From Tubulanus polymorphus (lineage: Eukaryota; Nemertea; Palaeonemertea; Tubulaniformes; Tubulanidae), in the NCBI RefSeq assembly GCF_964204645.1, contig NC_134030.1, positions 22,821,210 through 22,885,209 on the forward strand: 64,000 nt of DNA. Direction: 5' to 3'. Below the pieces are notes generated by a model. That model did no database searches, was not told where the DNA came from, and was given only the letters and a program-made list of their open reading frames with translations. A program made the translations under genes and the position numbers. Below are positions 185 through 56,045 of the stretch, in pieces (the first letter of the stretch is position 1; the number at the start of each line of letters is the position of its first letter).

Positions 185-1694
185 GTATAAAGATAAATGA
201 AAACCCGTGTAAACTGCATGAATTCAAACCATCACTGGCTTGTACTTGTGAAGCCACTAGTAAGATTGGTAATCCAAACATCAAAGTAAAATGGTATGCT
301 GATGGATATAGAGGTTCCAAAAAAATTGAGATTTTCAAAGAGCAAGGGGTAAATACTGCGCTGAAAGATGGATTAATCAACAGAAATCAGATGTATTATC
401 TGTACAAGATTGACACAACATTGACTCAATGTCGTTTATGGAATTATAATGGGATAGAGTTACCGGAACCACTTCAAAAACAAATACTACATCAAACTAA
501 AATGGACGTTACGTGTAAGTTGTAACATATTTTCATGAGAAAATTTCCATACAATATCAAACTGAAGTCTGATAGTTAGAACATTCTGCCGTGGTGTCCA
601 CATATGAATGTCCCTGTCTTGTGACGTAAGAATTTAAGCTTTTTCGGTTAGAAGTTATTTATTTAGATGAAAAAATCAAACGTGTCCCTTGAGAGTTGGA
701 CTTAAATCAAACATTATCGCCCATTTTCTCCTTTTACCTCATATTTATTATTTAATTATTGTAACAACACAAAAGTTCGCATTGTATTCCCATTAATATG
801 TAATGTAAAAACCATTGCAGTAAAATAGTTGAAAAATTATAATATTAAAAACCAATTCAGTTGAAAAGGATTCAATTCAATTAAAGAATTTAGCAAACAT
901 TGAATGATATCCAAAAAGTTCTTCTTTTCAGATTTTCCTGATGAAATTCTGACGAACGATACTTATACGGGACAACCTGACATTAGAACTGAAGGAGAAG
1001 TTGTAGAATATATTTGTAGAACAGAAGGTGGAAGGCCCGATCCTACAGTGATATACCAACAGAAGAGAAGAGGTTCTGAACAATGGGAGCCAATTCCTGA
1101 TCCACAACCTCGTAAAGTACCCCTCAAAGGGACGTTAAAAGGTTTTGACACGACCTACAAGTTCAATGCTGATTTCAAACTGCACAATGGAACGTCATTT
1201 CGATGTGCTGTAGAGGAGAACCTTACGTTTCCAGAACCTCAGCAATTTAATCCAATCATCGTTCATCGTAAGTAACAGATTTATTGTTGTATTTCAGAAA
1301 AGATCTTCGGCTTTTGGTGTTAAGAGTTCTCTTTGGAATAGTACCAACCCCAGTCCTGTATACCTATCCACCCTCGGCATATGGCAGATATTTGTAACAA
1401 CTTTGATTTTGTGTTTTCAATCAGATTTTGCTGCACCAGTTTACAAGAAATCCAGTGAAAATAAAACAAATGCAGCGTATATTGTGACAGTTAATAGTTA
1501 CCCATTGACTCAACAAGTTACATGTGACCCTCCAGCTGTCGTTCAAAAACTATCAACCTATCAGTGGAATATAACGATACCTATCGTAAATAGTACCACA
1601 ACTGACTATAGAGGGCGGTGTTTGGCTGACGGTATTAATGAAAGGGTTATTGATGTCGCTGGTTATCATAACGCCGGTCCAACTGATGATCTAG
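185..1694 (+). other. Ectodomain: three Ig-like exons
   Basis: Exons 185-514, 932-1267 and 1425-1694 encode about 110, 112 and 90 residues, one Ig-like unit each. Exon 1 has paired cysteines and a KVKWY strand-C tryptophan. Exon 2 has YICRTEGGRP (strand B) and GTSFRCAVEE (strand F). Exon 3 has QQVTCDPP and RGRCLADG, plus several N-x-S/T sequons typical of secreted domains. One domain per symmetric 1-1 exon is the classic Ig exon layout. Strand-F motifs are not the canonical DxGxYxC, so these are divergent Ig or Ig-like folds. Confidence 0.65.
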
Positions 1695-4600
1695 GTAAGA
1701 TTCCGGGTCACAAACGGATGATTTTTATCTGAATCTGAACAAATGTTTTAGGTCCTCGGCGTCATCATCTCTTAACTGGATGAATTTTATGCAGTCTTAC
1801 GTCGCCGTAGGAAAAGTCGCAACAAATTCGTCTTTAAGATCCGCCATTTTATATTTTCATTTCTATTTACTAAGTTTAAGTCATCATTTGGATAAGCCAT
1901 TTACATATTGATCTGAAGACATTACTCAAAGTTATCATCGTGGAAAGTCCAAAATATTCAGCTTTCTAACTTTTTATTTAGAAGTCGTTTAACCCGATCA
2001 AGGAACAATTAGTTTCAGTTAGTTATCGGAAATTGCTGAACTTAAAGTAAATTCAAATATTAATCACTTGTGGATATTTTACATTCAAATTTCCAATTCT
2101 ATTTGAAAGTTTTTGCTTCAATTCAATTGCTGATACTTTTATCACTAGTTACAATAGAAATATTTACAGCTTTATATAATCTGATTTAATTGCTGCTCAA
2201 TTTCAGTTTCTGATGGAGGGTATGGAGGCAGAGTGTTCGGTGCTGTAATCGGTGTACTGATATTAGTGATTCTGATAATACTGTTTATACTGTGGCGTCG
2301 TGGCTGCTGTAAGTTTTACCTAAAACCATCATTAAACAGTGATGAAAAAACTGTTGAAATAAAATACTAGGTCCAGTTCCACAGTTCTGAGTTAAGATTT
2401 AACTCAGAGTTAACTCATTCAAAATGAACTGATTTTAACTCAGAGTTAACTCTAACTCACAACTGTGGAACTGGGTCCTGTATTATTTCTAATTGACAGT
2501 GCGGTGCAGAAAACCTAATGATGAACTGTGTAGATGTGGAAATTGTAAGTTCTGTTATAATTCATTAACACAATGCTTAAAATTTAAAAATAGTTTACAA
2601 GCCTTGAGGGATTCGGGGTCTTTTAGGTTGCCAGATACATTTCATTCTCAATTATCTGTGAAAATCTTTAATCTCGGGACCCTAATTGCACAGTCTTCTT
2701 CCGAATATGTGGTCGTCAACTATTAGACTGGTCTTAAGTCGTGAGATTGGTTATAGAACTAAAATATGTACAGACTGGTCTTAAGTTGTTAGATTGGTTA
2801 TAGAACCAAGATGAGCTTAGACTGGTCTTAAGTCGATAGATTGGTTATAGAACTAAAATATGTACAGACTGGTCTTAAATTGTTAGATTGGTTATAGAAC
2901 CAAAATGAGCTTAGACTGGTCTTAAGTTGTTAGATTGGTTATAGAACTAAAATGAGCTTAGACTAGTCTTAAGTTGTTAGATTGGCTATAGAACTAAAAT
3001 GAGCTTAGACTGGTCTTAAGTTGTTAGATTGGTTATAGAACCAAAATGAGTTTAGACTGGTATCAATTTGTTAGATTGGCTACAGAACTAAAATGAGCTT
3101 AGACTGGTCTTAAGTTGTTAGATTGGTTATAGAACTAAAATGAGTTTAGACTGGTATCAATTTGTTAGATTGGCTACAGAACTAAAATGAGCTTAGACTG
3201 GTCTTAAGTTGTTATTGGTTACATAACCAAAAATGAGTTAAGACTAGTCTTGAATATAAGCCGTAACTGTAAAACTAGCTCCTACAAAACATTTAGTTCA
3301 TTGTCAATTAAGATGATGTAATCTGCAATCTATAAGATTATCCGCTGACAAGACCGGTCTCGACAGTGGCAGATAATTGAGAGTTCATGAGGTCTGAAAT
3401 TGGCCTCACCTCTAGATACGCTCAATATCGCATACATGATTATTGCAAGTTAACATAATTTGTTTGTTTGTTTTCAGTGACTTGCAAATTACCTACTGCC
3501 GATGAACCTGATAATAAGGATGACTCCTCAGATGAACTGTGTCATTGTTGCTGCTGTGAGTTCTATATATAAACTGATAATGATTAAGAGTCAGTAACTG
3601 TAGAATAAACTGTTGTATTATTTTCTATTTGCAGTGCTGTTGAGAAGGGAGCCATGTACATGTGATTACTGTAAGTTGTATTAACATTGAAAACATTGAT
3701 CACAAAATAAATTCCCAAACTCTCGAGAAATTAATTTTCTAATTCGCAAACTGGACGGTTGATGAAGGTTACGCAGTATCATCGGTTCAATTGTCTCAAA
3801 ATCTATCATACCATTAGCTACCATTGTGTGTGGCATTTACGATATCCAAATCACAGCATCATCCATTTTCTTGGTTGGATCAATGTGTCAGGTTTTGTTG
3901 TGTGTCAGGTGAACGTGCATCATGTAGGACAAACAGTATTTCTGTTTTCTAATTTACAGTCACGCGTTTGGGTCCGGAATCTAAAGATGTGATTGAATTG
4001 TTGCGTTGGACAAGTGAAACCTGGTATCGAAGAGGTAAGATTCTCTCACATGATTTAATGCACATATTCTCAGATATCGGTTTGATGATTTTAGGTGTTG
4101 TTTTCTCTTTGTAGATCATGAGAATTGGGTGAAAACACGTGACCAACTGCAGCCGGGTATTTATTAACCCTTTATTTCCATAACATGTATAATATCTTGC
4201 ATGAACACAGTACCTGATGCCCTAATGTAATGAAGCAGTACATGTTGTTTATAATAATCGCTGTGAATCATGTACAGGATGATGGTTTTTAATTTATATA
4301 TTTGTAGCTGGAGACTTTGAGGTCATTGACACATTCAGTCCATGTATAATCATCATATGAATTGAATCAAAATTGTTTATTTATCAATCAACTATTTGCT
4401 TGTGACGTGAGTGAATTCATTTGGAACTTGATTTACTATGAATTATCTTTCATTTCGTTTATAGAAACTGTTAGAATAATTGTCGATGTTTACGGAACTG
4501 AGAATAATTGGGAGATAACGAGAGATAAGGATAAACAAGGTAAGAGGAGTGATGACTCAGTTGCCAGAGGAAGTGCAGAACCGACTGATTGGTCCCCTGC

Positions 4601-7600
4601 AAGTCTCTCTAAACACGACACTTCTGCCTCCTATCTTCATCCAGCAGTAATTCAAACTGTTTGATGCACAGTTTATTTGACTATTGAACAAATAATTTCT
4701 ATATTTCATTTCAGCAAAAGCTATCAAAGAATTCCTGTTTGGACAGTTATCAAGTGATCAAAGTAAGTAATGGTTTACACATAGTTTGTGTTAAGTTCAT
4801 GTACACATGCACATTAATGTGAACATGCACATGTGAGTTGTGTGAACATGTACATGTGAGTTATTGTTACATGTACATGTGAGTTATGTATTCATGTTAT
4901 GATAACGTGTACATGTGCATGTGAGTAATACATGCATGTACACGTGAATGATACATACATGTGAGGCATGCGAACATGTGCATGTGAATTAAGTATACAT
5001 GTTCATGTAAGTTTACATGCACATGTGAGTAATGTGTGCATGTACATTTGATTGATACATAGTAAGTTGTGAGTTGCGGAAACATGTTCATGTAAGTTAA
5101 CATGCACATGTGATTTGTTACATGCGCATGTGTATTAAGTTCGATCAGTGTTTATATATTTCTAGGTATGTTGAATTTGGTGAAAAAAATTCTAAGTAAG
5201 TTTATAAAATCTCATATGAATTTTCTCTTCAACTCAAACCATGTCTCTAAATGTGTTAATTATCTATTGACAGGAAAATACGCGACAATAAACAATTTGA
5301 AAATGAAACTATCAAATGAGATCGGTAAGAGTTGATTAAATACAGTTATTGATGTATGAGTTTATTGATTATTATTCTACCGTCAACTCATTTTGTAAAT
5401 GTATTACAGATATATTACTGAACAAGAAGAGGTCAATAGATGGCGCTGATGCAGTTTACAATAGAGATGAAGGTACATGATTATCTACTGTTCAAATGAA
5501 ATATTCAGCTTTGCAGATAGAAATATAGCTAATTCCATTCAAGATGGCCGCTTGGCAGCCTTTTGGCAATAAGTCTATAAACCTTATAGAAGCGACCAGT
5601 TGAGAATTTGTAATAATTCACTGTGTTATTTCGTAAAATGGAATGTTACTGTAATCATATTTTTTTCCTAAACTCCTACCATTTTTGCTAAATCAAAATT
5701 TGAGATAAAAATTTCATCTTAAACATATCAGGCTAGAGATCAGAATATCAGACTTCTGCGATTGGACAACATCTCGCAATGTGTTTTGGGTGTAATTTGT
5801 TTTTTTATTTATTTTTTAAACAGTACCCAATAATCCGAATAACCATCAGTGCTAAATTCTAAGCTAATTACAAACCAAGTATTCAATTACAAGCTAATTA
5901 TTTGAATACATTTAAGATAAAGGATGAGCTGTTTTGGAATAATTGTTGATTGAGAGAGGGTCGTTTGAAATGTGCTACCCCTAAATCGCTGAAGGCTAAA
6001 GTCATATATAAATTTAATTGTTTATGGGATATAAACACTTCCTATATTGGGAAAACTAAACGACATTTGGCCATCAGGATTAAAGAACACAGATCAAAGA
6101 CTTCTGCGATTGGACAACATCTCGCAATTTGTCACACTTGTGAGCAGGAATTCAGTGACAACAAATTCAAAATTCTAGACAAAGGTTTATCTGATCTCGA
6201 CTGTAAAATTAGGGAGGCCCTGTTTATTAAAGCGCAACGACCCTCTCTCAATCAACAATTATTCCAAAACGGCTCATCCTTTATCTTAAATGTATTCAAA
6301 TAATTAGCTCGTAATAAAATACTTGGTTTGTAATTAGCTTAGAATTTAGCACTTGTAATTGTGTAACTTATGTTGTATATAAACCTGTAGTTTAATCATT
6401 TGATTCACTTGTATTTCACCCGATCAGGGGATATGATCCCGAAAATGTTCGTGTTAATAAACTGTATTTACTCATTAGAAAATGAGGTTTTTAGTGTTAT
6501 CGCTTCTATGGCTATTCGGATATTTGATCTCTCTTCCTAACATATCAGACTACAGCTTCAGAAATACTCAAGTTACAACAAAATAATCAGATATACACAA
6601 TCCAGAACAAAGAAACTAATTGAGAAATAAGATGTGATATAAATCAGGGGTAATGATACAGCATGAAACAGAATTGCAATTAAACTAATTTCAAATCTAT
6701 TTCCGTGTTTCAGATGAAGTTCATGTTAGTTTTATGACGCAATTGGATGAAGAGAAAAGACCCCTGACAGACAAAGAGAAAGAGTTCATCAGAGATGGTC
6801 AGTAAAACTATGATTTCTATCTGAGTTCAATTTTCACATGTAGTTGACGACCCAGATTTACCACAGAGTCTTAAAAGGTGTTGAAAGAACCTACTGGCGA
6901 AAATTGCTTTTTGAAAAAAAGTATTTTGGCATTTTTCAAGTTTTATTCAGATGTCTGTTAGTAATGATGAGTCATGTAGTTAACAGGGTTCAGTGATTCA
7001 TTGTGTTACCAATATTTAGGATTTATCTGTATTTATCGATTTGCAAAATAAATCGAGCGCCAAAAGAGCAACTGACTGCTCTCTGTGTGAATCTATTGAA
7101 CTTTTTTTGTAAGTTTCAAATCCCCAGTAAACGGTTATTGAATGTCTATATTTTCAGTCGCTTCAGCAGTTGAATCTATTGTTGATTTTTTTGCTAAAAT
7201 GTCCGGTGGGTTCCATAAATCATTTCAGTGAAATACTGTGGAGTTTGTTGTGGAATCATTGAATAATTGATTGTGTTTATTTTTACTGTAGATGCTGAAT
7301 TATGTGAACGAGGAATATTCAACATAAAACGTAGGTTTTAATTCTCATTTATCCTCGAATGAGTTTATGAAATACATGTGCTCTATAATCTACTTTACAT
7401 GTACATGTAGATTTTATCTGTACATGTACATGTTAGTTTTCTGAAGTATTTGTAAGTTCTGTGGTAAATACTTTTTCTCTATATTTCAGCTACTGCTGAA
7501 ATTGCTGGTAAGTTATAATATTCACTATGATGTTTAAACTGGTGCTGAGTCTGTTCAATTATAACTGAAATATCGCTGTATCTTTTTATAGAAAAGTTTG

Positions 7601-10600
7601 TTAAGGAAACTCTTCAAACAGAAGTTAAACAACAGAATGGTGAGTGTTCAGTTAAACTAGGAATCTATCGGGGGGGGGGGGGGGCATCAACTATGAACTG
7701 ATTACAAATTATACCTATTTTGTCTAATTACAGGAAAACTCGTCACACAAATAGAAAACCAGAAAGTAACTGATGAAACAAAGACTGGTTTGTTATACGA
7801 TAAACTGATTATCATAATTTATCCATAATCCATTCAGATGTTGTCAATATTAAACTATTTACCGGTACTAAAATCATGTAGATAGAAATTAACCCCGCAA
7901 TAGTGAATAATAGAAACTATCTTTATGGTTGGTATTACAGAAATGGGAGTGGCCGATCGGAACCGTTTTGTGAACAAAGATATTTGTGGTAAGACTGAAA
8001 ATGTTATTCTTTGATAATTTGTCACGCTTTGTAATTAATCGTTTCGTGAATGAGAAATCCGAGGTACATTAAAACCAGCTACCCGGTAATGTGCAACAAT
8101 TGGCAACGTTGTCAAAATTCATCCGCTTTGTGGGAAATTTAAGGTTTTATAAAACCCGGTTAATCCAGATGTATTTTGGTGAAATTCTAGTTTGAACTGA
8201 TCTAATCAATATTTATGTTATTCTATCCATGTATTCATTTGTAGAATCAGTTTTATTGGCGTCAAGTTTGCAGAAATTAGAAGAGAACAAACATTCTACA
8301 GAACTAGATAAAAGTGAGTGTAAATTTTCTTTGTTCTTAGAACTAAATTTACCGAGTATTTGATGACTATGAATTGAAGATGAAATTTGTTGATTATCAG
8401 AGGCATCTGTTTTGATTCAGAGCCACGTTAGTGGTGTTAAACTAGAATGTAGCTAGGTGACATTTTTTGTCGATGTGAATATTCTTCAGACCGAGTTCGA
8501 ATCATAGCTTGAAGAAACCATATTTTGATTGTCATGCATACATCACATGGGGTAGCTCTGAGAATATCCAAATCATATCATCATTAGAGGCTAGCTGAGG
8601 GTGATTTCTGTCCAAATGTTCCATTTTGGAAAATTATTTTTTCATTAATTTATTTCATTGTTCAACTAACTATATTTGCAGGTATTTATGAAATAGGCCG
8701 AGATGTTTTAGGTAAGAACTAAATAATGGTAACAAACTATGACTATTGAGGTCTAGGGTCGAAAGCAGACGCTTTAAACAAAAATTCTTGCAGAGAAACT
8801 TTGAATAAAGATTTTAGTCCTTTTCAATTATATTTTATATTTCTTGAGATTTTCTGTAAAGCTAGAAACTTGAAGGATTGAATATCTGATGAAAATATTT
8901 GATATTTGAAAAGAGGTTTAAAATAGCAGTGTTGATATTAGCAGTAGTTGATGCTGTGTTGGAATCATGAATTATATTCTTTTTTCAGAAATTAAATTGA
9001 AAATCGTAGTTTTCGAATCTATCAAAGGTAAGAGATCTATGTATGGATTACATCACAATCAGCAGGGTTTATTCCATCATTTTCCAAGATTCAACCTGAG
9101 CTCAATTTGTTTCCTGAGAACTCAATTTCAGTTCTGATGAAATTTTCCTGGTAATTTAGCTTTACGAATCACTTTTAGAATTGTTCGCTGGACGAGCTGA
9201 AAGATTTCAGAAAGAACTCAAAGAGAAACTGAAACAAGAGGAAAATGAAGAGAGAAAAAATGAGGAGGAATTGAACAGAATAATTCACAGTTCAGTTTGT
9301 CAGGCGTTTAAATGTATCACTGATATGAATGAAAGTAAATATCGATTTCATATATCAGATTATACATGCTCTTAACATGTAACATGCTACATGTAAATGA
9401 ATGCACATGTTACATGTTCATGTAAATGAATTCACATGTAACATGTTGGTTCTCTGATACATTTCAGAAACTCTGATGGATAATAAAGTTGTACGATATG
9501 GAGGTTTGTATATAATTCACATGTTTCAATCACAAACCAGTTTTTATCATAAATAATCTGTTTAATTTTCTCTATTTATATTTCAGTGAGTCCAGAAGAG
9601 ATAAGTGAGTTCTGATTGATATTTATAAATATTCTCAGTACACTAGACTGCGCGCTTGCCTCTGATTTCATGTTGTAATTTGTCATATTTACCTGTTTAT
9701 AAGTTGTTTGTGATGTCAGTGATTTTCTATATTGATAGATTCTAAACTACATGAATTAGCCGATAAAGAGTTTGAAAGTAGGAAATTAGGTACTGTACAC
9801 ATTACAAAGTGTAAAATTCAACATGTTTTATGTTTTAAATCTTATTGATGTTTATTATCAATGTTTATTACAGTCGGTTACTTTAATAGAATAAAGACAC
9901 CTGAAGAAATATTGCCTCTAAAACTGAATATACCGGCACAACTCCGCACTGGTAAGTGACTACACTGAAGTGGTACTGAGTGCTTGAACTTGAATTCAAT
10001 ACAGTAAAAATGTATTGCGAGTAATTTTGACAAGTTTAGAACGAGGCAAATCGGTTCATTACAAATTTTCTGTGTTTTTAAATCGTTGAAATTTCATTTA
10101 ATGTTTGTAGAGTTGGATTCAGCTGATCGACATCCAGTTATTTTATGGGATCGAGCAGGTATTGTATAAGTCTGTTATAAATCTAACCTGTTTAATGCCA
10201 CTGATCTCACCATGTATTTCATCGGTCCCAACAGTGGCTGGCATGATATACTATTTCTGTGATAATGGAATTATCAGCATCTTAGGAGCACTAGCCTGGA
10301 ATATTCTGCAACTGATCTTTGTCCCTCAAAAGACGGTTAACTCTTCTAAGTTCTTCTTGCAAAAAAATCCTTAATCTGATCGTTTAGGAATTACCAGAAA
10401 ATGTTCTTCTATTTTAAACTCGATTATGAGGAGCAGACCCTGAAAATAGTTTTCAAACCCTGATTTACTGGTCTTATAAATGAAGTTTTAAATTGAAACC
10501 AAGCTCAATGAATGTTGTGTCTATGTTTGTTGTTTTTAAATGAATTTCAGTGGAATATTTCAAGGATGAATTCATTATTGCAATACAATCTGATGAATCA

Positions 10601-13600
10601 TTGAAAACTGCTACTCAAACTGCTTTAGATAACAGTAAGTTACATCTACAATAAACTACATTTACATGACAGTAAACTACATTTACATCTACAGTAAACT
10701 ACGTTTACATCTACAGTAAACTACGTTTACATCTACAGTAAACTACATTTACATCTACAGTAAACTACATTTACATCTACAGTAAACTACATTTACATCT
10801 ACAGCAAACTACATTTACATCTACAGTAAACTACGTTTACATCTACAGTAAGTTACATCTACAATAAACCTACATCTACAGTAAATTACATTTACATCTA
10901 CAGTAAACTACATTTACATCTACAGTAAACTACATTTACATCCGCAGTAAACTACATTTACATCCGCAGTAAACTACATTTACATCTACAGTAAACTACA
11001 TTTACAGTAAACTACGTTTACATCTACAGTAAGTTACATCTACAATAAACCTACATCTACAGTAAATTACATTTACATCTACAGTAAACTACATTTACAT
11101 CTACAGTAAACTACATTTACATCCGCAGTAAACTACATTTACATATACAGTAAACTACATTTACATCTACAGTAAACTACATTTACATCTACAGTAAACT
11201 ACATTTACATCTACAGTAAACTACATTTACATCTACGGTAAACGAAATTTACATCTGCGGTAAACTACATTTACATCTACAGTAAACTACATTTACATCT
11301 ACAGTAAACTACATTTACATCTACAGTAAACTACATTTACATCTACAACAAACTACATTTACATCTACGGTAAACGAAATTTACATCTACAGTAAACGAA
11401 ATTTACATCTACAGTAAACTACATTTACATCTACGGTAAACTACATTTACATCTACAACAAACTACATTTACATCTACGGTAAACGAAATTTACATCTAC
11501 AGTAAACTACATTTACATCTACAACAAACTACATTTACATCTACAGTAAACTACATTTACATCTACAACAAACTACATTTACATCTACAATTAGATACAG
11601 TTACTCACTAAGATTGTAAATCATTGAAATTTGTTTGTTTTTTTTTAGAATCAAGCGAAATCAACGATTTGTTGAGGAAAGAAAACTTGGAAGGTAAAAT
11701 TGTCTTCTGAAACGTGGATAAGATGTTTGTTTTTACGAACCGAACAATTACACCGTTTAAAATGATTCAATGATTTCTTCTATTTTCAGTTGTTGATAGA
11801 ATTTATGTTGATGTGAAAAACAGAATGAAATCAATTCCTACAGGTTTGTATTTAAATAATTTACTATCAATTCTTGAATTTAAATGTAAGATATATTTCC
11901 TCTTGTTGAGGTTTTTGTATATATATATATATATAATAATAATATAATATACGATAAGTGATATGACGTGATATGACGTGATGAGATATGTGATATGTGA
12001 TATATCATATTCCGTCATATCGCGTATTTATTTATGTCTGAATTTACGTTCCTATTTGTGATTTCAGAGGAATTAAAGCAACGAGGAATCGTAGTTTATA
12101 GAAGTGAGTAGAATTCCACAGTTTCAAGTTCCCCGTAAGCTCCTAACCCAAAAGCTCCTAACCCGTAAACTCATAACCCGTAAACTCCTAACCCAAAAGC
12201 TCATAACCCGTAAACTCCTAACCCGTAAACTTCTAACCCAAAAGCTCATAACCCGTAAACTCATAACCCGTAAACTCCTAACCCAAAAGCTCATAACCCG
12301 TAAACTCCTAACCCGTAAACTCCTAACTCGTAAGCTCCTAACCCGTAAACTCCTATAAAACTATAGACTCCTAACCTGTATATTCCTAACACTAAACTCC
12401 AAACACTGAGACTGAACTAAATTCAACCATAGTAAAAGTGAACCGTATGAATTGACCTGTTTAGATATACTCAATGTTTATACATGAATTATTATGTTTT
12501 CTGTTTTTCAGTAAAAGATGTAACAGCGAGTAAGTACTCATAACAACTTACACATTAAAGTCTAAATAGATAGATTTATAAAATGATAAGTTGTGTTTTG
12601 ATAGCTCTTAAATCCAAAGAAACTGCTCAGAGTGATTTACAGATGATGAAAATGCTTCCTTCAACAGGAAGGATTGGTAAAGAATAATAATAATAATAAT
12701 AATAATAATCCCTGCAGTAATCTATTGTGTTTATTCTGTTTCAGGGATTCCCATTAAACGAATTATTAAAAACAGAATCCCACAGTTTAAAGGTGAATAC
12801 ATTATGTTGACTGTTAGGTGTTTAGTATACTAGCAAAGAACCAGCCGTCCTGAACGGGTTTTATCGTGATTGAGTTCGAGTTGATTATTTTGCTTCTCGT
12901 GTGGAATCCACCGATATTTCGCGTAAGGTCGACTGTATTTTGTTGGAGGATATTGTGATGTAATAGCAGCATAAATAGTTTTACATCAGTTGACATCGTG
13001 ATATTTTCTAAATTAATCTTAGCTCCTCATTACGTACATTGTAACATTGTATAATTACAGATTCACTAGAGCCTGTTTTAAAAGAGAAATGTAAAGAAGC
13101 TTCTGGTTTGTCAGCAAACAGCAGCATGAACCCTATCACGTGGATAGTATCAAAACAATGGGAATATGATATATCTACTGCGAGTAAGTTCACAGTGAAA
13201 TCAGTTTGTGATTTATAATAGAATTCTATTGTATAAAAACTTGTCTATTGTTTATTACATATAGTGTCTGAACTCAGTGAATTTACCAGTACAACTTTAA
13301 AGACAAACACGGGTTATTGGAAACTGGTCAGAGAATGTTTCGGTAAATAGTGAATTCTTGTTTGACTGAACGTTTTATTAAATGATTCGATTTTCAGGTT
13401 TTGAATAATAATTGTTGTGTTCTGTTTTAATAGGAGATGAAATTGACAGTGAAACAAATACAACTGAACTGACAAAAATAGGTGAATATCAATACAATAA
13501 CAACTTATCATTTAATTTAACAGAAATATGGTGATGTGGTGAATTTTGCGTTGAATACTTTGAAGAGGAAATCTATTGATGTCATCAGATTATCAGAGGC

Positions 13601-14294
13601 ATCTGCTTAGATCCAGAGCCATGTTTTAAGTGGTGTTATTGAACTAAGAATGTTGCTAGGTGACAGTTTGTATGGATCTGACCGAGTTTACAGTAGATTA
13701 TTATAATCAGTCACGTTGAGAAGAAACGTTTAAGCATTACCGGTACCAAATCAAATATTATCAGTTACAAAATCAATCAAACCGTGTTTTAAGTGTGAAA
13801 CTAAAAGTGTTTGAAAGTCATTGTTTGTTTCGATGCTAATGTTCATTTGTTTCATTTGTTTTCAGTTCATGAATGTTTAGGTAAATGCGCTAAAACAATG
13901 TGTGATAAATGGAGTTTTGGTGAGTACCTCTCATGAGTACCCCATTTGAGTACCTCTCATGAGTACCTTATTCAAATAACTACCAGGCATCTCTTGAGTA
14001 CTGTTGAGGACTTGAATTCAAATCGGAATTTGAGTAGAAAAGTTGAGTGAGTACCATTTATTAACTGTCAGGATATGTGATCAGTGTAGTGGTGAGTACA
14101 TGAGTACCAAATACAGACACTCAACTGAGTACCCGGCCCCGGTACCTGAATTATGTAAAGGCATTTAAAAGATATAATACATTGATCAAGTTGAAACAAA
14201 CTGCAAACTGAACCAGTTTTTCTGTGAACTTATATTTCATGTTTTATCATTTCTAGACGATTTTAAGAACCACAAGATGATTAAAGAACCCTAA
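185..14294 (+). CDS. Ig-domain transmembrane receptor with a long cytoplasmic tail of phase-1 micro-exons (5' partial)
   Basis: This is the 3' part of a multi-exon gene; it enters the window at an acceptor with phase 1, so earlier exons including any signal peptide lie upstream. Coding exons read by GT/AG and phase: 185-514, 932-1267, 1425-1694 (Ig-like), 2207-2308 (membrane span), 2500-2544, 3478-3555, 3635-3670, 3960-4034, 4115-4156, 4465-4539, 4715-4762, 5166-5195, 5274-5324, 5410-5472, 6714-6797, 7158-7205, 7292-7330, 7490-7507, 7592-7639, 7734-7787, 7941-7988, 8245-8313, 8682-8711, 8989-9027, 9179-9334, 9468-9503, 9587-9604, 9739-9789, 9874-9951, 10111-10158, 10551-10634, 11649-11693, 11790-11843, 12068-12103, 12512-12529, 12605-12676, 12745-12792, 13061-13183, 13265-13342, 13434-13481, 13866-13919, 14257-14294 (stop TAA). 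Every exon before the last is a multiple of three and joins in phase 1, giving about 1047 aa with no internal stop. The tail is Lys/Glu-rich and helical-looking and matches no family I know. The gene may be a cell-surface recognition receptor (inference). All 42 exons belonging to one transcript is inferred from frame and strand. Confidence 0.72.
2207..2308 (+). other. Transmembrane exon of the Ig receptor
   Basis: This 102-bp exon encodes a short glycine-rich stalk, then about 20 hydrophobic residues (from FGAVIGVLIL to ILFIL) and a WRRG stop-transfer sequence. That predicts a type I topology with the following micro-exons in the cytoplasm. Confidence 0.8.
2373..2478. mobile_element. Palindromic MITE (CAGTTCCACAGTT family), copy 1
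   Basis: The element is about 106 bp with inverted ends (GGTCCAGTTCCACAGTT on the left; the reverse complement of the right end is GGACCCAGTTCCACAGTT). The interior is also palindromic, with AACTCAGAGTTAACTC in both arms. Related copies lie at 24423-24552, 33070-33178, 33199-33302 and 38337-38455. It sits in an intron of the Ig receptor. Confidence 0.65.
2500..3670 (+). other. Cysteine-rich juxtamembrane micro-exons (related pair)
   Basis: Exons 2500-2544, 3478-3555 and 3635-3670 directly follow the membrane span. The first two share a plan: L-x-C near the start and DELC-x-C near the end, with the second carrying a longer acidic insert. This suggests exon duplication. The third carries CTCDY. 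Cysteine clusters next to a membrane could be palmitoylated or bind metal; both are inference. Confidence 0.5.
2724..3250. repeat. Minisatellite, about 47-bp unit, MITE-related
   Basis: About eleven copies of a unit containing AGACTGGTCTTAAGTTGTTA and ATTGGTTATAGAACCAAAAT. The same unit recurs at 49650-49910 and, inverted, at 55455-56045. It matches the interior of the GGGGCCAGTTCCATA element family (19200-19328, 53029-53113). Confidence 0.85.
4308..4343 (+). other. Possible alternative micro-exon creating a stop
   Basis: This stretch has a good acceptor, 36 bp in phase 1, and a GTATAA donor. However, joining its last T to the next exon at 4465 (starting AA) makes TAA. It is therefore either not an exon, or an alternative cassette that truncates the tail after about 13 residues. 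I left it out of the main gene model. Confidence 0.3.
4795..5135. repeat. Cluster of ACATGTACATGT palindromes
   Basis: Irregular repeat rich in ACATGT and ACATGCACATGT palindromes with 20-35 bp spacing. Similar clusters occur at 7390-7435, 9365-9445, 36480-36680, 37525-37795 and 39640-39715, mostly in introns close to splice sites. Confidence 0.7.
5950..6303 (+). pseudogene. GIY-YIG endonuclease domain of a Penelope-like element (truncated)
   Basis: About 117 codons are open. Recognisable features are YKFNCLWD followed by TSYIGKTKRHLAIRIKEH, the YIG/GKT-R core of PLE endonucleases, then an IGQHL/CHTCEQEF zinc-knuckle-like stretch and a KI-REALFIKAQRPSLNQQ end. The reverse transcriptase domain is absent, so this is a dead fragment. 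There is no start codon belonging to the original ORF. Confidence 0.8.
6412..6452 (+). ncRNA. Decayed hammerhead-ribozyme-like hairpin of the PLE
   Basis: The order is CAC, a mutated core (CCGATCA in place of CTGANGA), stem II GGGAT/ATCCC, GAAA, ATGTTC, then GTG that can pair with CAC as stem I. The changed core suggests it is no longer active. Confidence 0.35.
10636..11592. repeat. Minisatellite, 22-bp unit, in an Ig-receptor intron
   Basis: About forty copies of ACATTTACATCTACAGTAAAC. It begins immediately after the donor of exon 10551-10634, and its unit resembles that donor region (ACAGTAAGTTACATCTAC). Exact donor-like AGTAAGT copies reappear inside the array near 10848 and 11030. Confidence 0.9.
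12118..12362. repeat. Minisatellite, 15-bp unit (CTCCTAACCCGTAAA)
   Basis: About sixteen units alternating CTCCTAACCCGTAAA and CTCATAACCCAAAAG, starting just after the donor of exon 12068-12103. The open frame across it is a by-product of the 15-bp period. Confidence 0.9.
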
Positions 14295-15350
14295 CCGTCG
14301 ATCTAGTGGTGGCAGTGACTGGAGGAGTGGTTATGGTAGATCGAACTACCGTTGATATTCTGTTGTCAGTGTTTAACCTCATCCGCAGTTTGACCTGTTC
14401 TCTTATTGCGTATTGTGTAAGAATCGATTGCTTTGTGTCACCCGGTAGAAAATACACTTCATTCTGAAAATAATTCGATATTGATAAACCAGAAATTCCT
14501 AACTCACGACCGGGTTTTGTATCACTGATTGATGCTGTTTATAAATCGTTTTATCCTAGAATCGAGTGCGATTTTATACGAAAAAGAAATAATAATGAAA
14601 GGAAAAAATACGATTCAAATAAAATTTGTGTAATTTGTTTAAATTGAATAGCTGTATTATTGGTCTTTTTAATAAATTGATAAATTAATTTCATCAGCTC
14701 AATTGTGATAACATTAATCAATTGTAACTGAATTGTAAATGAAATACTGAGTAACTGAATTATAGTCTAGATGAAATACATTGTAACTGAATTATTGAAC
14801 CGTAGTTGAAATATAGTTTGTAATTATATATCGAGCAGAAATACATTGTAATTAAAATTACTTTTTACAAAATTATCAGCGGTCTTGGGGAGATTTACAT
14901 AAACTTCTCTTGAAGCTGAATCTTACAATGTATAATTGTATTTTGATACAATGTAACTGGTTTAACGATATTACAATAATGTAAGTTAAAAACTGTACAA
15001 ATTTATTAATGATTGACTTGATCAGTATTATTATTGAAAACAGTGATAAAATTCATTTCTTTAAATAGTTTTGTAATTATGCTTTTTCTATGAAACCGAT
15101 GATGTTAGATGCGGTTTATACAACGAGAGAGGTCACGGGCTCCTGGTAAATGCAGGTCGCGGGCCCCCGGTAAAATTATGAAAATACTGATTCAATGTGT
15201 TCCATGGAGGTCGTGGGCTCCCTGGTTAAAATGTGCAGCTAGAAATTGCTAATAATGCAACGTGCTTATTTCATTAATGAAAATTTATATATAGAATTTT
15301 TAATTCAAGCAGTGAATAATTATTCAGTTTTACAGAAAACCTGAATCTGC
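14295..15350. other. 3' flank of the Ig-receptor gene, no gene seen
   Basis: AT-rich sequence after the TAA at 14292-14294. AATAAA-type signals occur around 14625 and 14670 and may end the transcript. Short GGTCGTGGGCTCC/GGTCGCGGGCCCCC repeats lie at 15130-15220. No coding potential was recognised. Confidence 0.5.
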
Positions 15351-16215: not shown

Positions 16216-16485
16216 GGCGTTGATCCACGCTGTCGCAATTGCCACACGTGTGACAGTCAGAGCTGCTTAAAAAAATTAAAAAGTTGCCGAAATAAATTAC
16301 AAGCATATGAAAAGACAAAGGTTTAGTTCATACTGATCCTATAAATACTAGACTAATGCGCAATTACCTTCTCACCTCGTAGATTTTGTCAAATTATATA
16401 CGCTACGTTAGGTTAATATAAATTATAATTTATTGAGGCTCTGAAAAGTCCACACAACGCGTCTTCAGAAGCATAAATTAGCAAA

Positions 16486-16895
16486 ATGCCTGGTCACCAG
16501 TTACCACACCTGACTGGTCACCAGTTACCACACCTGACTGGTCACCAGTCACCACACCTGACTGGTCACCAGTTACCACACCTGACTGGTCACCAGTTAC
16601 CACGCCTGACTGGTGACCAGTCACCACACCTGACTGGTCACCAGTTACCACACCTGACTGGTCACCAGTTACCACGCCTGACTGATCACCAGTCACCACA
16701 CCTGACTGGTCACCACAGCGAAATGGTCTCCACACTGACCAGACAAACTTAAATCCTCCGTCAGTCACCATTGATCTATGGTCTAGTGGTTAGCATGCTC
16801 GGCTGACATGCTAAAGGTGTCAGGATCGAGTCCTGCTAGGGTTAGGGTTGTAGGCGAGCTAGGGTTAGGGTTACTAAATAGCTAGGATTGGGGTC
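16486..16895 (+). mobile_element. Composite VNTR + tRNA-like + TTAGGG-tail element, copy A
   Basis: The order is a 24-bp VNTR (ACTGGTCACCAGTTACCACA) of about ten units at 16486-16735, then the linker GACCAGACAAACTT, a tRNA-like segment at 16775-16842, and a CTAGGGTTAGGGTT tail. The tRNA-like part has A box TGGTCTAGTGG and B box GGATCGAGTCC, resembling tRNA-Glu-type SINE heads. Copies B (48790-48970, minus) and C (60990-61290) share the same order. Probably a SINE with a VNTR head. Confidence 0.7.
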
Positions 16896-30300: not shown

Positions 30301-33300
30301 AGTATCTACACTCAGTTAATTCACCATCCAGTTCCACAGTTCTAAATCCAGTTCCACAGTTCTGTATCCAGTTCCACAGTTCTGAACTCAGTTCCACAGT
30401 TCTGTATCCAGTTCCACAGTTCTGGACTCAGTTCCACAGTTCTGTATCCAGTTCCACAGTTCTGGACTCAGTTCCACAGTTCTGAACTCAGTTCCACAGT
30501 TCTTGACCTAGTTCCACAGTTTCTGGACCCAGTTCCACAGTTCTGGACTCAGTTCTACAGTTCTGAACCCAGTTCTACAGTTCTGGATCCAGTTCTCCAG
30601 TTCTGGATCCAGTTCCACAGTGTCTGAACTCAGTCCCACAGTTTTTGGACTCAGTTCAACAGTTCTGGACCCAGTTCCACAGTTCTGGACTCAGTTCCAC
30701 AGTTCTGAACTCAGTTCCACAGTTCTGAACTCAGTTCCACAGTTCTGGACCCAGTTCCACAGTGTCTGAACTCAGTTCCACAGTTACTGGACTCAAGAAA
30801 TGGAGGGTGTCCTCATTGTCTGAATATCTTGTATTGTTGTATTACAGTGAACCGATCCTAGCGACCGTCGCTCAAGAGGAACTCAACACTGGCTCAAAAT
30901 CATCGAAGGAAATCGGTCACCATGGTGATCTGACGCAGGTAATGACAACAATACCCGCTCTTCGATCAGCGCAACAATTAAACCTGTTTCATACCAGTTG
31001 TTATTGGTTACTGTTTTAGGCGGAGAAACATCATTCGGTGTTAATTGATTTGTTGTGTTCAGAGGCAGACGTCAAACCGGAACAAATTATTGATTTTGAA
31101 TTGATGCTGGCGGATACACAACCAGCGGTAAATACTCTCCTTAAAAATACTACTTTAAAACTGCTTAACAGAAATTACTTTTAAAAGTACCTGAAACTTC
31201 TTTAATTTAAGCGAAAAAGTCCAAAACTTCTTTGAAACTCTTTTAGTTTTGAGGAAAAGGCAATTAACAACTTTTTTATGTCCAGTAAACTGCGCCTAAA
31301 TCGATATACAGTTCGTTTCTAATTTTACAGGTCACCGGTGGAATTTTCGACGAGTTTATTTTCTCACCGAGATTGGATAATTTAGTGAACGCTTTCTGCG
31401 CGACCGAGGTAAAATCAGCGGCCATCTTGAATTAATTAAAACGCCGTTCATTATTCCGCGATACCTGTGGAACTTGTTCTATCCGTTGATCCATAATTCA
31501 TAATACTAGAATCTTTCTTTAGCGGAATTTCGCTATTTTATTTCACTTTCTATAATTTTGGACTCGATCTTTAGGAATTCTATAAACGACTGTCTTGATT
31601 TTACATAATTTTACTGCTGTTCTAACTATGGAGACCGAGTAGTTGTCGAATAAACACTATAATCAGTGTATACTGTAGATAAATGAAAAAATCCCACACT
31701 TCGAATTAAATTATAGGAAATAATTTATTATTTTGAAACCACAACGTTTCGGCTGTTGACTAACAGCCATCATCAGGTGGAAGCCATCATCATTCCACCT
31801 GATTCCACCTGATGATGGCTTCCAGCTGATGATGGCTGTTAGTCAACAGCCGAAATGTTGTGGTTTCAAAATAATAAATTATTTCCTATAATTTAATTCG
31901 AAGTGTGGGATTTCTTCATTTATGGAGACAGAGTGTCTGTGTTTTTTTTTCAGGGTAATTTCAAAATAGTTTCGGGAGACTTAGACTTCATTCCTAGGAT
32001 ATAGATTTCTCTGCTGTCAGAGAATGCTTATATGTCACTGTACTTAAAAGACTTTATCTTCTAATCACTTTTAATCAGGACCGATGTTTGGTGTTTGTAA
32101 TTTGTAGGCTCTGATCGCGTCGTGCAGCGATGTCTCTCGGTCTCTAAGCGCCGACAGTAACGTTCGACTCATCAGTCTATTCGACAATGAAGAGGTCGGT
32201 TCTCAGAGCGCTCAGGGCGCCGAGTCGATGATACAGGAACACGTACTACGACGACTGGCCACCGGGGAAAACCCGACGGCGTTCGAGGAAGCTATTCCGA
32301 AATCGTTAATGATCAGCGCTGATCAGGCTCACGCCGTTCATCCTAATTACTCGTTAGTATCCACTCCCTACAACTCCTTTATAATAACTCCTTCTTAATG
32401 AAAAAAAACTTTTAAATGTTTTTGAAACTCCTTTCATTTGAATAGAATGCCCAAAAATGCTTTTGAACTCCTTCAATTTTGAAAACAGGCAATTTGAAAT
32501 CTAGATTTTCCCGAATTTTAGTCAAATTATTTAGTTTTTTTCGAATAATTTGATAATGTGTTTTTTGTTTCCAGTTCGAAACACGAAGATAATCACAAAC
32601 CAGCTTTACACAAGGTGTTTATTTCAATCATAATATTTCTATTTCTTCAGTGATTCATAGAAAATCAGAAATCATAAAATGGTTCGTTCTCTGTTTGCTT
32701 TTTAGGGGATTGTGGTTAAGATTAACGCCAACCAACGCTACGCTACGACTTCAATCACAAGCGCCATCTTGAGGCAAATAGCGAAAATAGTAAATGTACC
32801 ATTACAGGTAAATATTTACAGCAGTCCCAACGCTACCGAGTTCCCTGATTCTCAACTCAGTACTTACAGCAGTCTCGGCACACTACTGAGTTCCCTGATT
32901 CTCAATACTACTGAGTTCCCTGATTCTCAACACTACTGAGTTCCCTGATTCTCAACACTACTGAGTTCCCTGATTCTCAATACTACTGAGTTCCCTGATT
33001 CTCAACACTACTGAGTTCCCTGATTCTCAATACTACTGAGTTCCCTGATTCTCAACACTACTGAGTTCCTTGGATCCAGTTCCACAGCTGTGAGTTAGAG
33101 TTAACTTTTGTTAGTTCATTTTCAATGAGTTAACTCAAGAGTCAAATTGTTACACAGAACTGTGGAACTGGACCCTGATTCTCAACACTACTGAGTTTCT
33201 TGGATCCAGTTCAACAGTTGTGAGTTAGAGTTCACTTTTGAGTTAAAGTTAGTTAATTTTCGATGAGTTAACTCCGAGTCAGAACTGTGGAACTGGACCC

Positions 33301-37367: not shown

Positions 37368-40300
37368 TCATATGATGATGCAACAGCGACAATATCGCTG
37401 TCTACCGCCGCCAACAGAGGGCGGCGGTGTTACTGGCGCGAAGTAGGCGTGGATTTTAACATCGGGCAAATGATTCTAAAAAATAGAAATAAAATACATC
37501 ATAATTAGACTGAATTATCAAAAATATACATGTACATATGTATAATTCACATGTACATGTTAGTCACATACATGTACACGTAAATAATACACATGAACAT
37601 GTAAGCCACACACATGTACATGTGCTATACATGTACATGTATATCATACACATGTACATGTAAATAATACACAAGAACATGTAAGTCACACACATGTACA
37701 TGTATGTGATTCACATGCACATGTATGTGATATACATGTACATGCAAGCCAGACACATGTACATGTAAGTCATACACATGTACATGTAAGTCACTGATTG
37801 ATTGACATACCCGTAACCGTCTGATTCCAGCTCTTGTTATCAGTTGACAGTCGTAGAGTTCGATGCGTTCCAGCTCCTGGCAGCCCATTAGATGTTCTAA
37901 CGACGCATCGGTAATTAACGGACAATTATCTAATTCAAGAACCGTTAACGCATCGGTCGCGCAGTGACTGCTTCCCAGGTGTCGGATTCCTTCATCGGTG
38001 ATCAATTCACAATGTGACAAACTCTGTAACGGTGAGGAGAATATCAGCCCCCTAGAGACTGACTGGAACCCCTTCACACAGCTGGAACCACTGACCCCCC
38101 TCAGTTCAATCTACAGCCTCAGTTCAATCTACAGCCTCAGTTCAATCTACAGCCTCAGTTCAGACTACTATATCACAATTGATACTGAATACTCACCAAT
38201 TTTGATAAAACAGGACAATGAACTGCTAAATGTCCCAAAGTTGTATCAGTAATCTGAAAAACCAGACGGAATTAGTTTCATGAACATTTCCAACACGCTT
38301 TTTATTCTTTGATGTAGATTTTCGAATACTTCTGGGCCCGTTTCCACAGTTGTGAGTTTGAGTTAACTCTGAGTTAAAGTTAGTTCATTTTCAATGAGTT
38401 AACTCATTTAGAGTGAAATCTAGGAACTCAGAAGTGTGGAAGTGGACCCTGGTACGTACTAGAACACATTCCTCCAGATCCATTCTCTCCAGGTTATGAC
38501 AATTCTGTATTGACAAAAATAAAAAACATGGAATTTAACTTGATACCATTACATACCTCCACATACCATCACATACCCCCACATACCATCACAGACCCCT
38601 CCCCCCGCATACCATCACAGACCCCCCCATACCATAACAGACCCCCACATACAATCACAGACCCCCACATACCATAACATGCCCCCTCCCCCCGCATACC
38701 ATCACAGACCCCTCCCCCCGCATACCATCACAGACCCCCCCCCCCCATACCATAACAGACCCCCACATACAATCACAGACCCCCCCACATACCATCACAG
38801 ACCCCTCCCCCCGCATACCATCACAGACCCCCCCCATACCATAACAGACCCCCACATACAATCACAGACCCCCTCATACCATAACATGCCCCCTCCCCCC
38901 GCATACCATCACAGACCCCTCCCCCCGCATACCATCACAGACCCCCCCCCCCATACCATAACAGACCCCCACATACAATCACAGACCCCCCCACATACCA
39001 TAACATGCCCCCCACATACCATCACAGACCCTTCCCCCACATACCATCACAGACCCCCTCCCCCCACATACCATCACATACCCCCACATAACCCCCCATA
39101 CCATCACAGACCCCCCACATACCATCACATACCCCCACATACCATCACATACCCCCACATACCATCGCAGACCCCCACATACCATCACAGACCCCCACAT
39201 ACCATCACAGACCCCCCACAATGTCTTATGCTCGCGTATATTCAAAACCTACCCTCGCTAAAGCTTGAAAACCATTATCAGTCAATTGCGAACAGCTGGC
39301 GACTTCTAACGTTCTGAGGTCGGTACAACCGATACTCAGCGATACGAGGGTCGCGTCGGTGATATGTGGACATCCCGATACGCATAGCGACTGTAAACAA
39401 TGACAACCTTCACATACGTGATGGATAGCTTCATCTGTGATATTCTATAAATACAACCGACACTCGAAAATAAACATCGACGAACAACTCGAAATCAACG
39501 AATATAACAATCTTTAACAGTTGAATAATCGAACTTACAGCGCATGAATGTATGTTCAGGGTTCGTAGATTCTGACAAAACTTCGCTAAATTTGAAATGC
39601 CTTCATCTGTCAACTGAATATATACATTATCACTTACAAACACATGTACATGTAACATGGAGATACATGTAACATGGAGATACATCTCACATGTAGGTAG
39701 TTGCAACATGTAGTTAGATGTTTGGGTAGGTTGTGGTAAGTTGTTTACCTGGGAACAGCCTTTAGCTATTAGAACTTGTAGTTTAGGACAGCCTCGAGAT
39801 AGAGCTTCTATTCCGACATCTGTTATCTGACACCATGATATGTTTATATGATCTAAACTCGGACATCCTTCACTATAAAATATACAAAGTCAAATATTAG
39901 AACAGTGACGTAGCTCACAGGACTGATTCCACAACTGTGGAACTGATTCCAGAACTGTGGAACTGATTCCAGAACTGTGGAACTAGATACAGAACTGTGG
40001 AACTGGATACAGAACTGTGGAACTGGATAAAGAACTGTGGAACTGGATAAAGAACTGTGAAGCTGGGGCCGGAACTATGTCCATAGAAATTCTTACCTTA
40101 CTGGTTTTAAAGATTGACTAGTGACACTTGGACAGGACGACAGGTCGAGGTGCATAAGTTTTCGGCAATGTTTACCTAAACTGTGACAGGTCCTGGAGAA
40201 AAACAATCTATTTATGATTGATGAAGAAAGTGAAATTTCAATCCTGTATTTGAACCAGTGACTTACGCATCTGTAATCTTTTTGCACCCGCTCAAATTTA

Positions 40301-48970: not shown

Positions 48971-49640
48971 TTACAGTTTTATAAATTTTATCCGCTTGTG
49001 TTTATAGAAAGTACAAAATGGACAAAACTATCCTTATGATTGATACAATAAGAGGCAGGTTTTACCACGAAACATGTGGTGAGATTTTCCAAAATAACCT
49101 CAACACGTGCTAGCCCGGAACCCGAAACTGCAGCCTCCAAAAAGGGAGAGAGGAGTTAAGAGATGGAGATGAAGAGAAATGAACGGAGGGAGGATGGAGA
49201 GGGGAGGGGAGGGGGAGGGGAGGGGAGGAGGGAGGCGAAGAGGGAGAGTAAGTTTTCAGATGTGGATTTTAAATCATCGATTTGCCCAAATTCATATTTC
49301 TGTTTTCTCACCACAAATATTGTATTTTCAAGGTCGTTTGTTACGGATGAACGATTTCAATCGATTTTCATGCCGTGTTTTGCGATGAGAGATGATGCAG
49401 TATTTATACAGTTCCCACTGGAGGGCAACGAACAGATTACAATCATCAGACATAGTGAAATAAACAGCGAAACGAAACGTTCGTAATTAAGTCTAATACG
49501 ACTTGAAGGTGATGAACTCCACGCATTTAAACACTTCTCAAAAAGTCTAATTACAGAATGTACTCATTCTATAGTTACGTTGATGATGTCTAGGTTGTCT
49601 TCCAAAATTAGTTTAGACTATTCTTTATTTCTTAGGCTGG
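48971..49640. other. Intergenic with a GGGGAGGGGA purine tract
   Basis: Purine-only stretch (GGAGGGGAGGGG) at 49170-49250. Remaining sequence has no recognised gene. Confidence 0.4.
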
Positions 49641-49649
49641 TCATGCAAC

Positions 49650-49912
49650 AAAAAGAACTTATACTGGTCTTAAGTTGTTACATTGGCTTTAGAACCAAAA
49701 TGAGCTTAGACTGGTCTTAAGTTGTTAGATTGGTTTTAGAACCAAAATGAGCTTAGACTGGTCTTAAGTTGTTAGATTGGCCACAGAACTAGATTGGTCT
49801 TGGACTAGTCTTAAGTTGTTAGATTGGTTATAGAACCAAAATGAGCTTAGACTGGTCTTAAGTTGTTAGATTGGCTATGGAACCAAACTCAGCTCAGACT
49901 GGTCTTAGCGAA
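49650..49912. repeat. 47-bp MITE-related minisatellite, second array
   Basis: About five copies of AGACTGGTCTTAAGTTGTTA, same orientation as 2724-3250. Confidence 0.85.
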
Positions 49913-55454: not shown

Positions 55455-56045
55455 GAGGTTACAACTGAGTATAAACTCATTCTGGTTCTATAATCAATCT
55501 AACAACTTTAAGACCAGTCTAAACTCATTTTAGTTCTATAACCAATCTAACAACTTTAAAACCAGTCTAAACTCATTTTGGTTCTATAACCAATCTAACA
55601 ACTTAAGACCAGTCTAAGTTCATCTTAGTTCTATAACCAATCTAACAGCTTAAGACCAGTCTAAACTCATTTCGGTTCGATAACCAATCTAACAGCTTAA
55701 GACCAGTCTAAACTCATTTCGGTTTTAAGCTCATTTTGGTTCTATAACCAATCTAACAACTTTAAGACCAGTCTAAGCTCATTTTGGTTCTATAACCAAT
55801 CTAACAACTTAAGACCAGTCTAAGTTCATCTTAGTTCTATAACCAATCTAACAGCTTAAGACCAGTCTAAGCTCATTTCGGTTTTAAGCTCATTTTGGTT
55901 TTATAACCAATCTAACAACTTTAAGACAAGTCTAAACTCATTTTGGTTCTATAACCAATCTAACAGCTTGACCAGTCTAAACTCATTTCGGTTTTAAGCT
56001 CATTTTGGTTCTATAACCAATCTAACAACTTTAAGACCAGTCTGT
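55455..56045. repeat. 47-bp MITE-related minisatellite, inverted array
   Basis: About twelve copies of TAAGACCAGTCTAAGCTCAT then TTTGGTTCTATAACCAATCT, the reverse complement of 2724-3250. Confidence 0.9.

Follow-up and report, generated by a model that had tools for sequence, protein, structure and literature searches.

A putative family of clustered immunoglobulin-type receptors with tails of serial phase-1 micro-exons in the nemertean Tubulanus polymorphus

The left end of a 64,000-nucleotide stretch of Tubulanus polymorphus DNA, here called the window (contig NC_134030.1, or C6, positions 22,821,210-22,885,209, in a genome of 267.8 Mb in 77 contigs), contains the 3' part of one gene in which three exons of immunoglobulin (Ig) type are followed by a membrane exon and by 38 tail exons, up to a stop codon ending at 14294. 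The initial annotation had proposed an Ig receptor with a membrane exon and a serial tail of about 38 symmetric phase-1 micro-exons of 18-156 bp (median about 48), and this architecture stands, with Pfam C2-set_2 in the second Ig exon, a membrane exon and an open phase-1 chain; the recount agrees exactly, giving 38 exons of 18-156 nt with a median of 48, the 37 internal ones all divisible by three and the last one not. The donors are GT in 37/37 cases and the acceptors AG in 38/38, and the phase-1 reading from the membrane exon to the TAA stop gives 701 residues. In correction of the initial annotation, the gene begins before the window; with the 5' end upstream, no signal exon of the gene was identified, and the membrane exon is clear. 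A candidate 39th exon at 4309-4350 was dropped, being devoid of an in-frame donor and unconserved in paralogs. In the following list an exon is clean when it has AG, GT, a length multiple of three and no stop, and A-F are paralogous copies.

185..514, + strand: Ig1, Ig-type ectodomain exon, phase 1-1, 330 nt (splice sites and open frame)
932..1267, + strand: Ig2, Ig-type ectodomain exon, 336 nt (Pfam C2-set_2; matches in several paralogs)
1425..1694, + strand: Ig3, membrane-proximal Ig-type exon, 270 nt (29 genome places, none with an internal stop)
2207..2308, + strand: transmembrane exon, 102 nt, hydrophobic run GAVIGVLILVILIILFILWRR (at least 24 genome DNA matches)
2500-2544, 3478-3555, 3635-3670, + strand: three Cys-rich juxtamembrane exons (splice sites; clean in 2/6, 3/6 and 2/6 of paralogs A-F)
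3960-4034, 4115-4156, 4465-4539, 4715-4762, 5166-5195, 5274-5324, 5410-5472, 6714-6797, 7158-7205, + strand: first nine of 18 tail exons (each clean in 5/6 or 6/6 paralogs)
7292-7330, 7490-7507, 7592-7639, 7734-7787, 7941-7988, 8245-8313, 8682-8711, 8989-9027, 9179-9334, + strand: other nine of these 18 (each clean in 5/6 or 6/6 paralogs)
9468-9503, 9587-9604, 9739-9789, 9874-9951, 10111-10158, 10551-10634, 11649-11693, 11790-11843, + strand: eight-exon run (paralog comparison)
12068-12103, 12512-12529, 12605-12676, 12745-12792, 13061-13183, 13265-13342, 13434-13481, 13866-13919, + strand: eight further tail exons (clean in 4/6 to 6/6 paralogs, except 12605, 2/6)
14257..14294, + strand: last coding exon, stop TAA at 14292-14294, read as a deletion scar

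The splice matrices were trained on the window's own exons and for this reason the independent controls weigh more, paralogs A-F lying outside the training set. A scan for phase-1 exons finds 35 on the + strand and one on the - strand at window 2300-14300, and 39/1, 34/0, 34/0, 28/1, 33/2 and 33/0 (+/-) in A-F, respectively; in the remaining 48 kb of the window there are 9 (+) and 5 (-), 20 shuffles of the window give 0-3 exons each, and scans set to phase 0 and to phase 2 find 7 and 8. When length is left unconstrained, 19 of the 30 best splice pairs are divisible by three. A size motif, picked post hoc, in which 36 or 39 nt are followed by 18 nt occurs at 3/3 of the 18-nt exons (permutation p ~0.0012). 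An internal repeat of the whole tail was rejected: the top self-alignment reaches 59, where 30 column shuffles reach 46 at most, and is heavily gapped, the second best scores 41.8 (2/30 shuffles higher) and the remaining eight are inside the null, so that an ancient repeat within the tail is possible, at most as a weak one. The tail introns hold tandem arrays at window 2723-3251 (47-nt x 11) and 10640-11589 (22-nt x 44), the 47-nt family being found again at 49602-49907 and 55468-56043. An intron insertion at 5746-6538, between exons 5410 and 6714, is skipped in DNA alignments to A-F; it reads like the GIY-YIG end of what we take to be a Penelope-like retroelement.

The exons of this gene recur in the genome, all the match counts being lower bounds: at least 24 DNA matches for the membrane exon, at least 29 for Ig3 and at least 18 for the 156-nt tail exon. 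Twelve membrane exons lie on C6 at 21.69-22.09 Mb, 11 of them with the next one 25-43 kb on, and others are located on C6 at 18.1-18.4, 20.6, 22.3 and 22.8 Mb and on C9 and C19. The 24 membrane-exon copies are accompanied by micro-exons only (16), NACHT only (3), both (3) or neither (2). That the region holds one receptor gene and not several, as originally annotated, is upheld by the two tail exons tested: all 18 copies of the 84-nt exon, and likewise all 18 copies of the 156-nt exon, are preceded on the same strand by a membrane exon no more than 30 kb away (0/18 without, in each case). Nine copies, A-I, were read, each in part, and among them Ig1 is found in A and H; the identity of Ig3 is 75-100% in 25 of 29 matches. 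Six more Ig3-like exons are present at C6:20430960-20570310, four of them only 48-53% identical, and this group is perhaps an older branch of the family. Copy H (C6:22357814, minus strand) has the membrane and Cys-rich exons, and neither micro-exons nor NACHT were found downstream; it is a candidate short-tailed member or relic.

The exon chain of the tail is kept among the paralogs, 27 of the 38 exons being clean in all six copies A-F and 33 in at least four; the weakly kept ones are 2500, 3478, 3635, 12605 and the last exon. Length changes in clean exons are whole codons, e.g., 51/48/57, 87/78/66 and 90 for 123. The joined tails of A-F comprise 519-715 codons and no stops, after removal of exons regarded as doubtful or duplicate (A 11545, B 3397, B 3896, C 4641, E 10488) and with one exon end in A set by hand to the length in the other copies. 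The exon order around the 156-nt exon is collinear in the 16 loci read; the survey of 18 loci rests on these 16, the minus-strand loci L038 and L045 being outside its counts and read separately. Indel events amount to 40 per 9,835 exon positions (0.004) versus 142 per 6,151 deep-intron positions (0.023). Spliced retrocopies, looked for as a stand-in for RNA, are absent among the matches listed out of 169, in which exon junctions are overrun by at most about 18 nt.

The variation visible in the genome is fixed between genes and consists in the gain and loss of exon runs. Beyond the homologue of the window's last exon, copy A has seven more exons and copy E six more, followed in E by the terminal exon; the stretch 14304-14398 of the window aligns with E 16402-16498, within that terminal exon and beyond it, which implies that about 2 kb with those exons were lost and that the window tail ends early. 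On this sequence comparison the exon ending at 14294 is not the usual terminus of the family, which again corrects the initial annotation, but a deletion scar in which an exon with an internal position in A and E has been fused to the last part of the terminal exon. A second exon run homologous to 9587-12068 is present in B, C, D and F, reaching 12512 in D and F; exon 10111 is present twice in A, and when D is extended by 7 kb another seven exons can be recognised past its first 20 kb, in addition to two or three uncertain ones. In the C9 copy the seven searched exons of the 9468-11790 run were not found beyond chance (one 12-residue match, E = 0.40; exon 9587, with only 18 nt, is below a searchable length), and the controls A and E show 7/7. 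On C19 and at C6 22.26 Mb, too, the 156-nt exon is followed by a 12068-type exon in the 3 kb read, with one weak match (E = 0.43) on C19. Since the run is missing, single or largely doubled, and always in frame, these copies are direct evidence that the symmetry of the exons has been used in evolution.

Some sister genes have a NACHT exon downstream. In copies G and I a single open frame, 932 and 933 codons long, respectively, comes after Ig3 and the Cys-rich exons and contains the P-loop GEPG(M/I)GKTT; for G, Pfam reports NACHT (E = 6.8e-15), NB-ARC (E = 1.5e-5) and NLRC4_HD2 (E = 3e-4, below the cut-off). Exons similar to the Cys-rich trio are also present in G, H and I. The genome has at least 27 NACHT matches, and many NACHT exons of this kind are found at other places, with no membrane exon listed beside them. 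One large NACHT exon, with an open frame of 921-977 codons, is found downstream of six of the 24 membrane exons (on the same strand, no more than 60 kb away and with no other membrane exon in between):

C6:18434500-18454499: membrane-exon copy with downstream NACHT
C6:22298000-22317999, minus strand: membrane-exon copy with downstream NACHT
C6:18368846: membrane-exon copy with downstream NACHT
C6:22260581: membrane-exon copy with downstream NACHT
C9:320392: membrane-exon copy with downstream NACHT
C19:29805: membrane-exon copy with downstream NACHT

Micro-exons are present as well in three of the six, namely those on C9 and C19 and the one at C6 22.26 Mb. On C9 the micro-exons are followed by a 42-nt exon (ESSEMESLLKEDW) and then by NACHT with a phase-1 acceptor, a similar 42-nt exon standing before NACHT in copy I. 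The micro-exons lead towards NACHT, as order, strand, phase and splice site together show for one locus, and order and distance only for two more. The NACHT-linked copies are candidate surface-anchored NOD-like receptors (NLRs).

As regards the protein, the joined ectodomain of the window gene matches Pfam C2-set_2 above the cut-off (E = 6.5e-5), the best stretch being in Ig2; Ig1 has a weak match to Ig_2 (E = 0.14) and Ig3 has no Pfam match. The AlphaFold2 model of Ig3 is all-beta with seven strands, at the modest confidence of a mean pLDDT of 67, and its Foldseek matches are weak and to Ig domains only (E = 0.053 at best, with no match below 0.001). A lipid anchor is possible, to judge from the Cys-rich exons that follow the membrane exon. 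The consensus tail contains 35% charged residues, 2.1% proline and 2.3% glycine, and its hydrophobic moment exceeds that of shuffles with z = 4.0 at 100 degrees and z of at most 1.9 at six other angles; by this periodicity the tail looks like amphipathic helix.

Taken together, these data are best explained, with a confidence somewhat above even, by an immune-type Ig receptor whose helical scaffold tail grows and shrinks by phase-1 cassettes, the window locus belonging to a clustered family of single-pass surface receptors with Ig domains. The cytoplasmic part would be a long, mostly alpha-helical scaffold encoded by the serial micro-exons; as every exon is a phase-1 cassette, duplications and deletions keep the frame and lead to different tail lengths in different genes. 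Binding of a ligand would cluster the receptors, and the Cys-rich segment and the helical tail would assemble at the membrane. In members with NACHT, its oligomerisation would be nucleated in cis, while NACHT-less tails such as that of the window could nucleate it in trans or damp it. The most likely role, by analogy with known receptors, is recognition in immunity or between self and non-self.

Several observations weigh against this explanation. None of the 27 genomic NACHT matches falls inside the window; Pfam finds no leucine-rich repeat (LRR) in copy G, whose C-terminus looks LRR-like by eye; the phase-1 acceptor of NACHT is weak on C9 (6.1 bits, to be compared with 11.4 in I and 9.9 in G); and the NACHT linkage on C19 is weak because 52 kb separate NACHT from the membrane exon. 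The tail gives only chance-level matches to Pfam, NCBIfam and PDB sequences, and hence no known domain, in line with the original remark that it belongs to no recognised family; immunoreceptor tyrosine-based activation and inhibition motifs (ITAM, ITIM) and YxxM, looked for as signalling motifs, are absent from the 701 residues of the window tail. The ratio of nonsynonymous to synonymous substitution (dN/dS) of the tail is high, i.e., 0.76 against A-F, 0.57 among up to 15 of the 18 loci per exon and 0.87 for eight loci against the window (single loci 0.57-1.86; in this comparison one L040 exon was paired with the wrong 36-nt exon); the Ig exons give 0.51 by the same measure, with few comparisons (A-F). 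Divergence is nearly equal at the three codon positions (0.085, 0.093 and 0.086, versus 0.137 in deep introns), which means that constraint at the protein level is weak, or that the residues diversify, or that gene conversion blurs the signal; what the tail keeps is thus its frame, under residues that evolve rapidly, diversify or become mixed through gene conversion. In copy E the 156-nt exon no longer has its donor. Finally, the immune role is argued from analogy, and the explanation as a whole from genomic DNA; splicing may add variation, yet the anatomy does not require it.

Splicing is the core of the rival explanation that survives best, which we nonetheless consider rather unlikely: cells or tissues would skip different subsets of the symmetric micro-exons, so that one gene would produce very many tails, thousands of them as the initial annotation proposed. 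Each of the 37 internal tail exons is an in-frame cassette, and the loss and gain of exons among paralogs shows that several are dispensable; precedents are the isoforms of the shrimp Dscam tail generated by exon choice and the splice variants of schistosome micro-exon genes (MEGs) generated through very small symmetrical exons, as given in the available text of both sources (PMC6851185, PMC4350168). However, the tail exons have strong splice sites when scored with their own matrices (medians of 8.3 bits for donors and 10.3 bits for acceptors), as for constitutive use, order and length are conserved over the paralogs, which argues for a tail used whole, and the loss of exons between genes is different from splicing. 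A combined scheme, which is given somewhat less credence still, places an Ig-transmembrane front end before tails varied at two levels, with exon runs gained, doubled or lost between clustered genes and cell- or tissue-specific splicing within a gene, both tuning the nucleation of NACHT in cis or in trans; if true, it would represent a membrane-anchored NLR system whose cytoplasmic code is combinatorial.

A doubtful alternative is that the tail is a passive linker, i.e., a long constitutive helical spacer that perhaps once connected the membrane to NACHT and is now drifting in NACHT-less copies. The location of micro-exons between membrane exon and NACHT in three copies, the nearly equal change at codon positions, the deleted tail end of the window and the donor lost in copy E are all in its favour, but the NACHT-less copies A-F keep frame, splice sites and exon lengths, where a drifting tail would be expected to show frameshifts, and exon order is collinear in the 16 loci. 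It is very improbable that two genes have been read as one, namely an Ig receptor that stops shortly past the membrane exon, with a helical cytoplasmic protein encoded separately downstream: G, H and I do carry the membrane part without a long micro-exon tail in the stretches read, but neither tail exon tested occurs without a membrane exon upstream on the same strand (0/18 each), and phase 1 is maintained across the membrane-tail join.

Other loci were noted around the receptor gene and on the same contig. From about 10,030 to 6,150 bases before window position 1, on the same strand, there is an apparently separate short gene with an Ig2-like exon and a hydrophobic exon, whose tail exon encodes 19 tandem PY(M/I)DM units (YxxM) and ends in the ITIM-like VTYINL; YxxM is the PI3-kinase SH2 site. 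Within the window, 32108-32395 (+) and 37628-39889 (-) are taken by eye to be an aspartyl aminopeptidase and an F-box/LRR protein, respectively. At C6:5318228-5634747 ten Hox-like homeobox exons, eight of which were read, form one cluster on one strand; they carry what we take to be Lox5-, Lox4- and Lox2-like flanks, which fits a lophotrochozoan and argues against a flatworm.

In comparison with known systems, the family is best read as a variant of receptors of the Ig-transmembrane-NACHT type, with an exon logic like that of schistosome MEGs and Dscam tails; among the open-access papers listed in literature searches, none was on a micro-exon receptor tail. To our knowledge, the diversity of invertebrate recognition receptors is known mostly for ectodomains. 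The allorecognition loci Alr of Hydractinia and fuhc of Botryllus comprise Ig-type recognition receptors in one genomic complex, and we know of no micro-exon tails or NACHT exons in them. A long series of short exons, of phase 1, is also found in titin PEVK. The PEVK series undergoes heavy splice variation and encodes a mostly unstructured region, according to the available part of PMC13031707; the tail described here has 2.1% proline and a helical periodicity of z = 4.0, and so is not PEVK-like.

Schistosome MEGs, as the accessible text of PMC4350168 presents them, have very small symmetrical exons, splice variants and high dN/dS, and their products have a signal peptide, are secreted or anchored and are restricted to platyhelminths. 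Small symmetric exons and high dN/dS are shared, MEGs using such exons for most of the coding sequence (PMC4350168, same text) and the gene of the window for the tail only; here they encode a helical receptor tail next to Ig exons of ordinary size, and splice variation is only a candidate. Arthropod Dscam is likewise an Ig receptor, and its tail exons, which can be included or skipped, are a tested precedent for tail diversity, the shrimp tail reaching at least 384 isoforms by exon choice (PMC6851185, in the portion available). In contrast to the many genes with 38 tail micro-exons considered here, Dscam is, in the same portion of that source, one gene of 44 exons in all, whose ectodomain diversity comes from alternative Ig exons (PMC6851185). 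The closest likeness in domain order is the sea cucumber AjNLRC4, which the available text of PMC8699970 describes as a membrane protein, with Ig outside the cell and NACHT inside, that binds microbes and drives phagocytosis by way of actin, so that extracellular Ig, membrane span and intracellular NACHT are arranged as in the sister genes. Unlike AjNLRC4, the window gene has no NACHT, and in this family micro-exons sit between the membrane exon and NACHT; moreover, AjNLRC4 has a second predicted membrane span (PMC8699970, same text) and belongs to an animal of a different phylum. A second sea cucumber protein has NACHT outside and Ig inside, as far as the available part of PMC13133943 indicates. 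In the present family the membrane-proximal Ig exon is kept, and it is the inside that varies, both in its exon runs and in whether NACHT is present; a natural series of tail lengths within one family makes the wiring of a surface Ig receptor to an NLR switch testable, and the uniform phase of 38 serial micro-exons offers a clean case for the origin and spread of long exon series.

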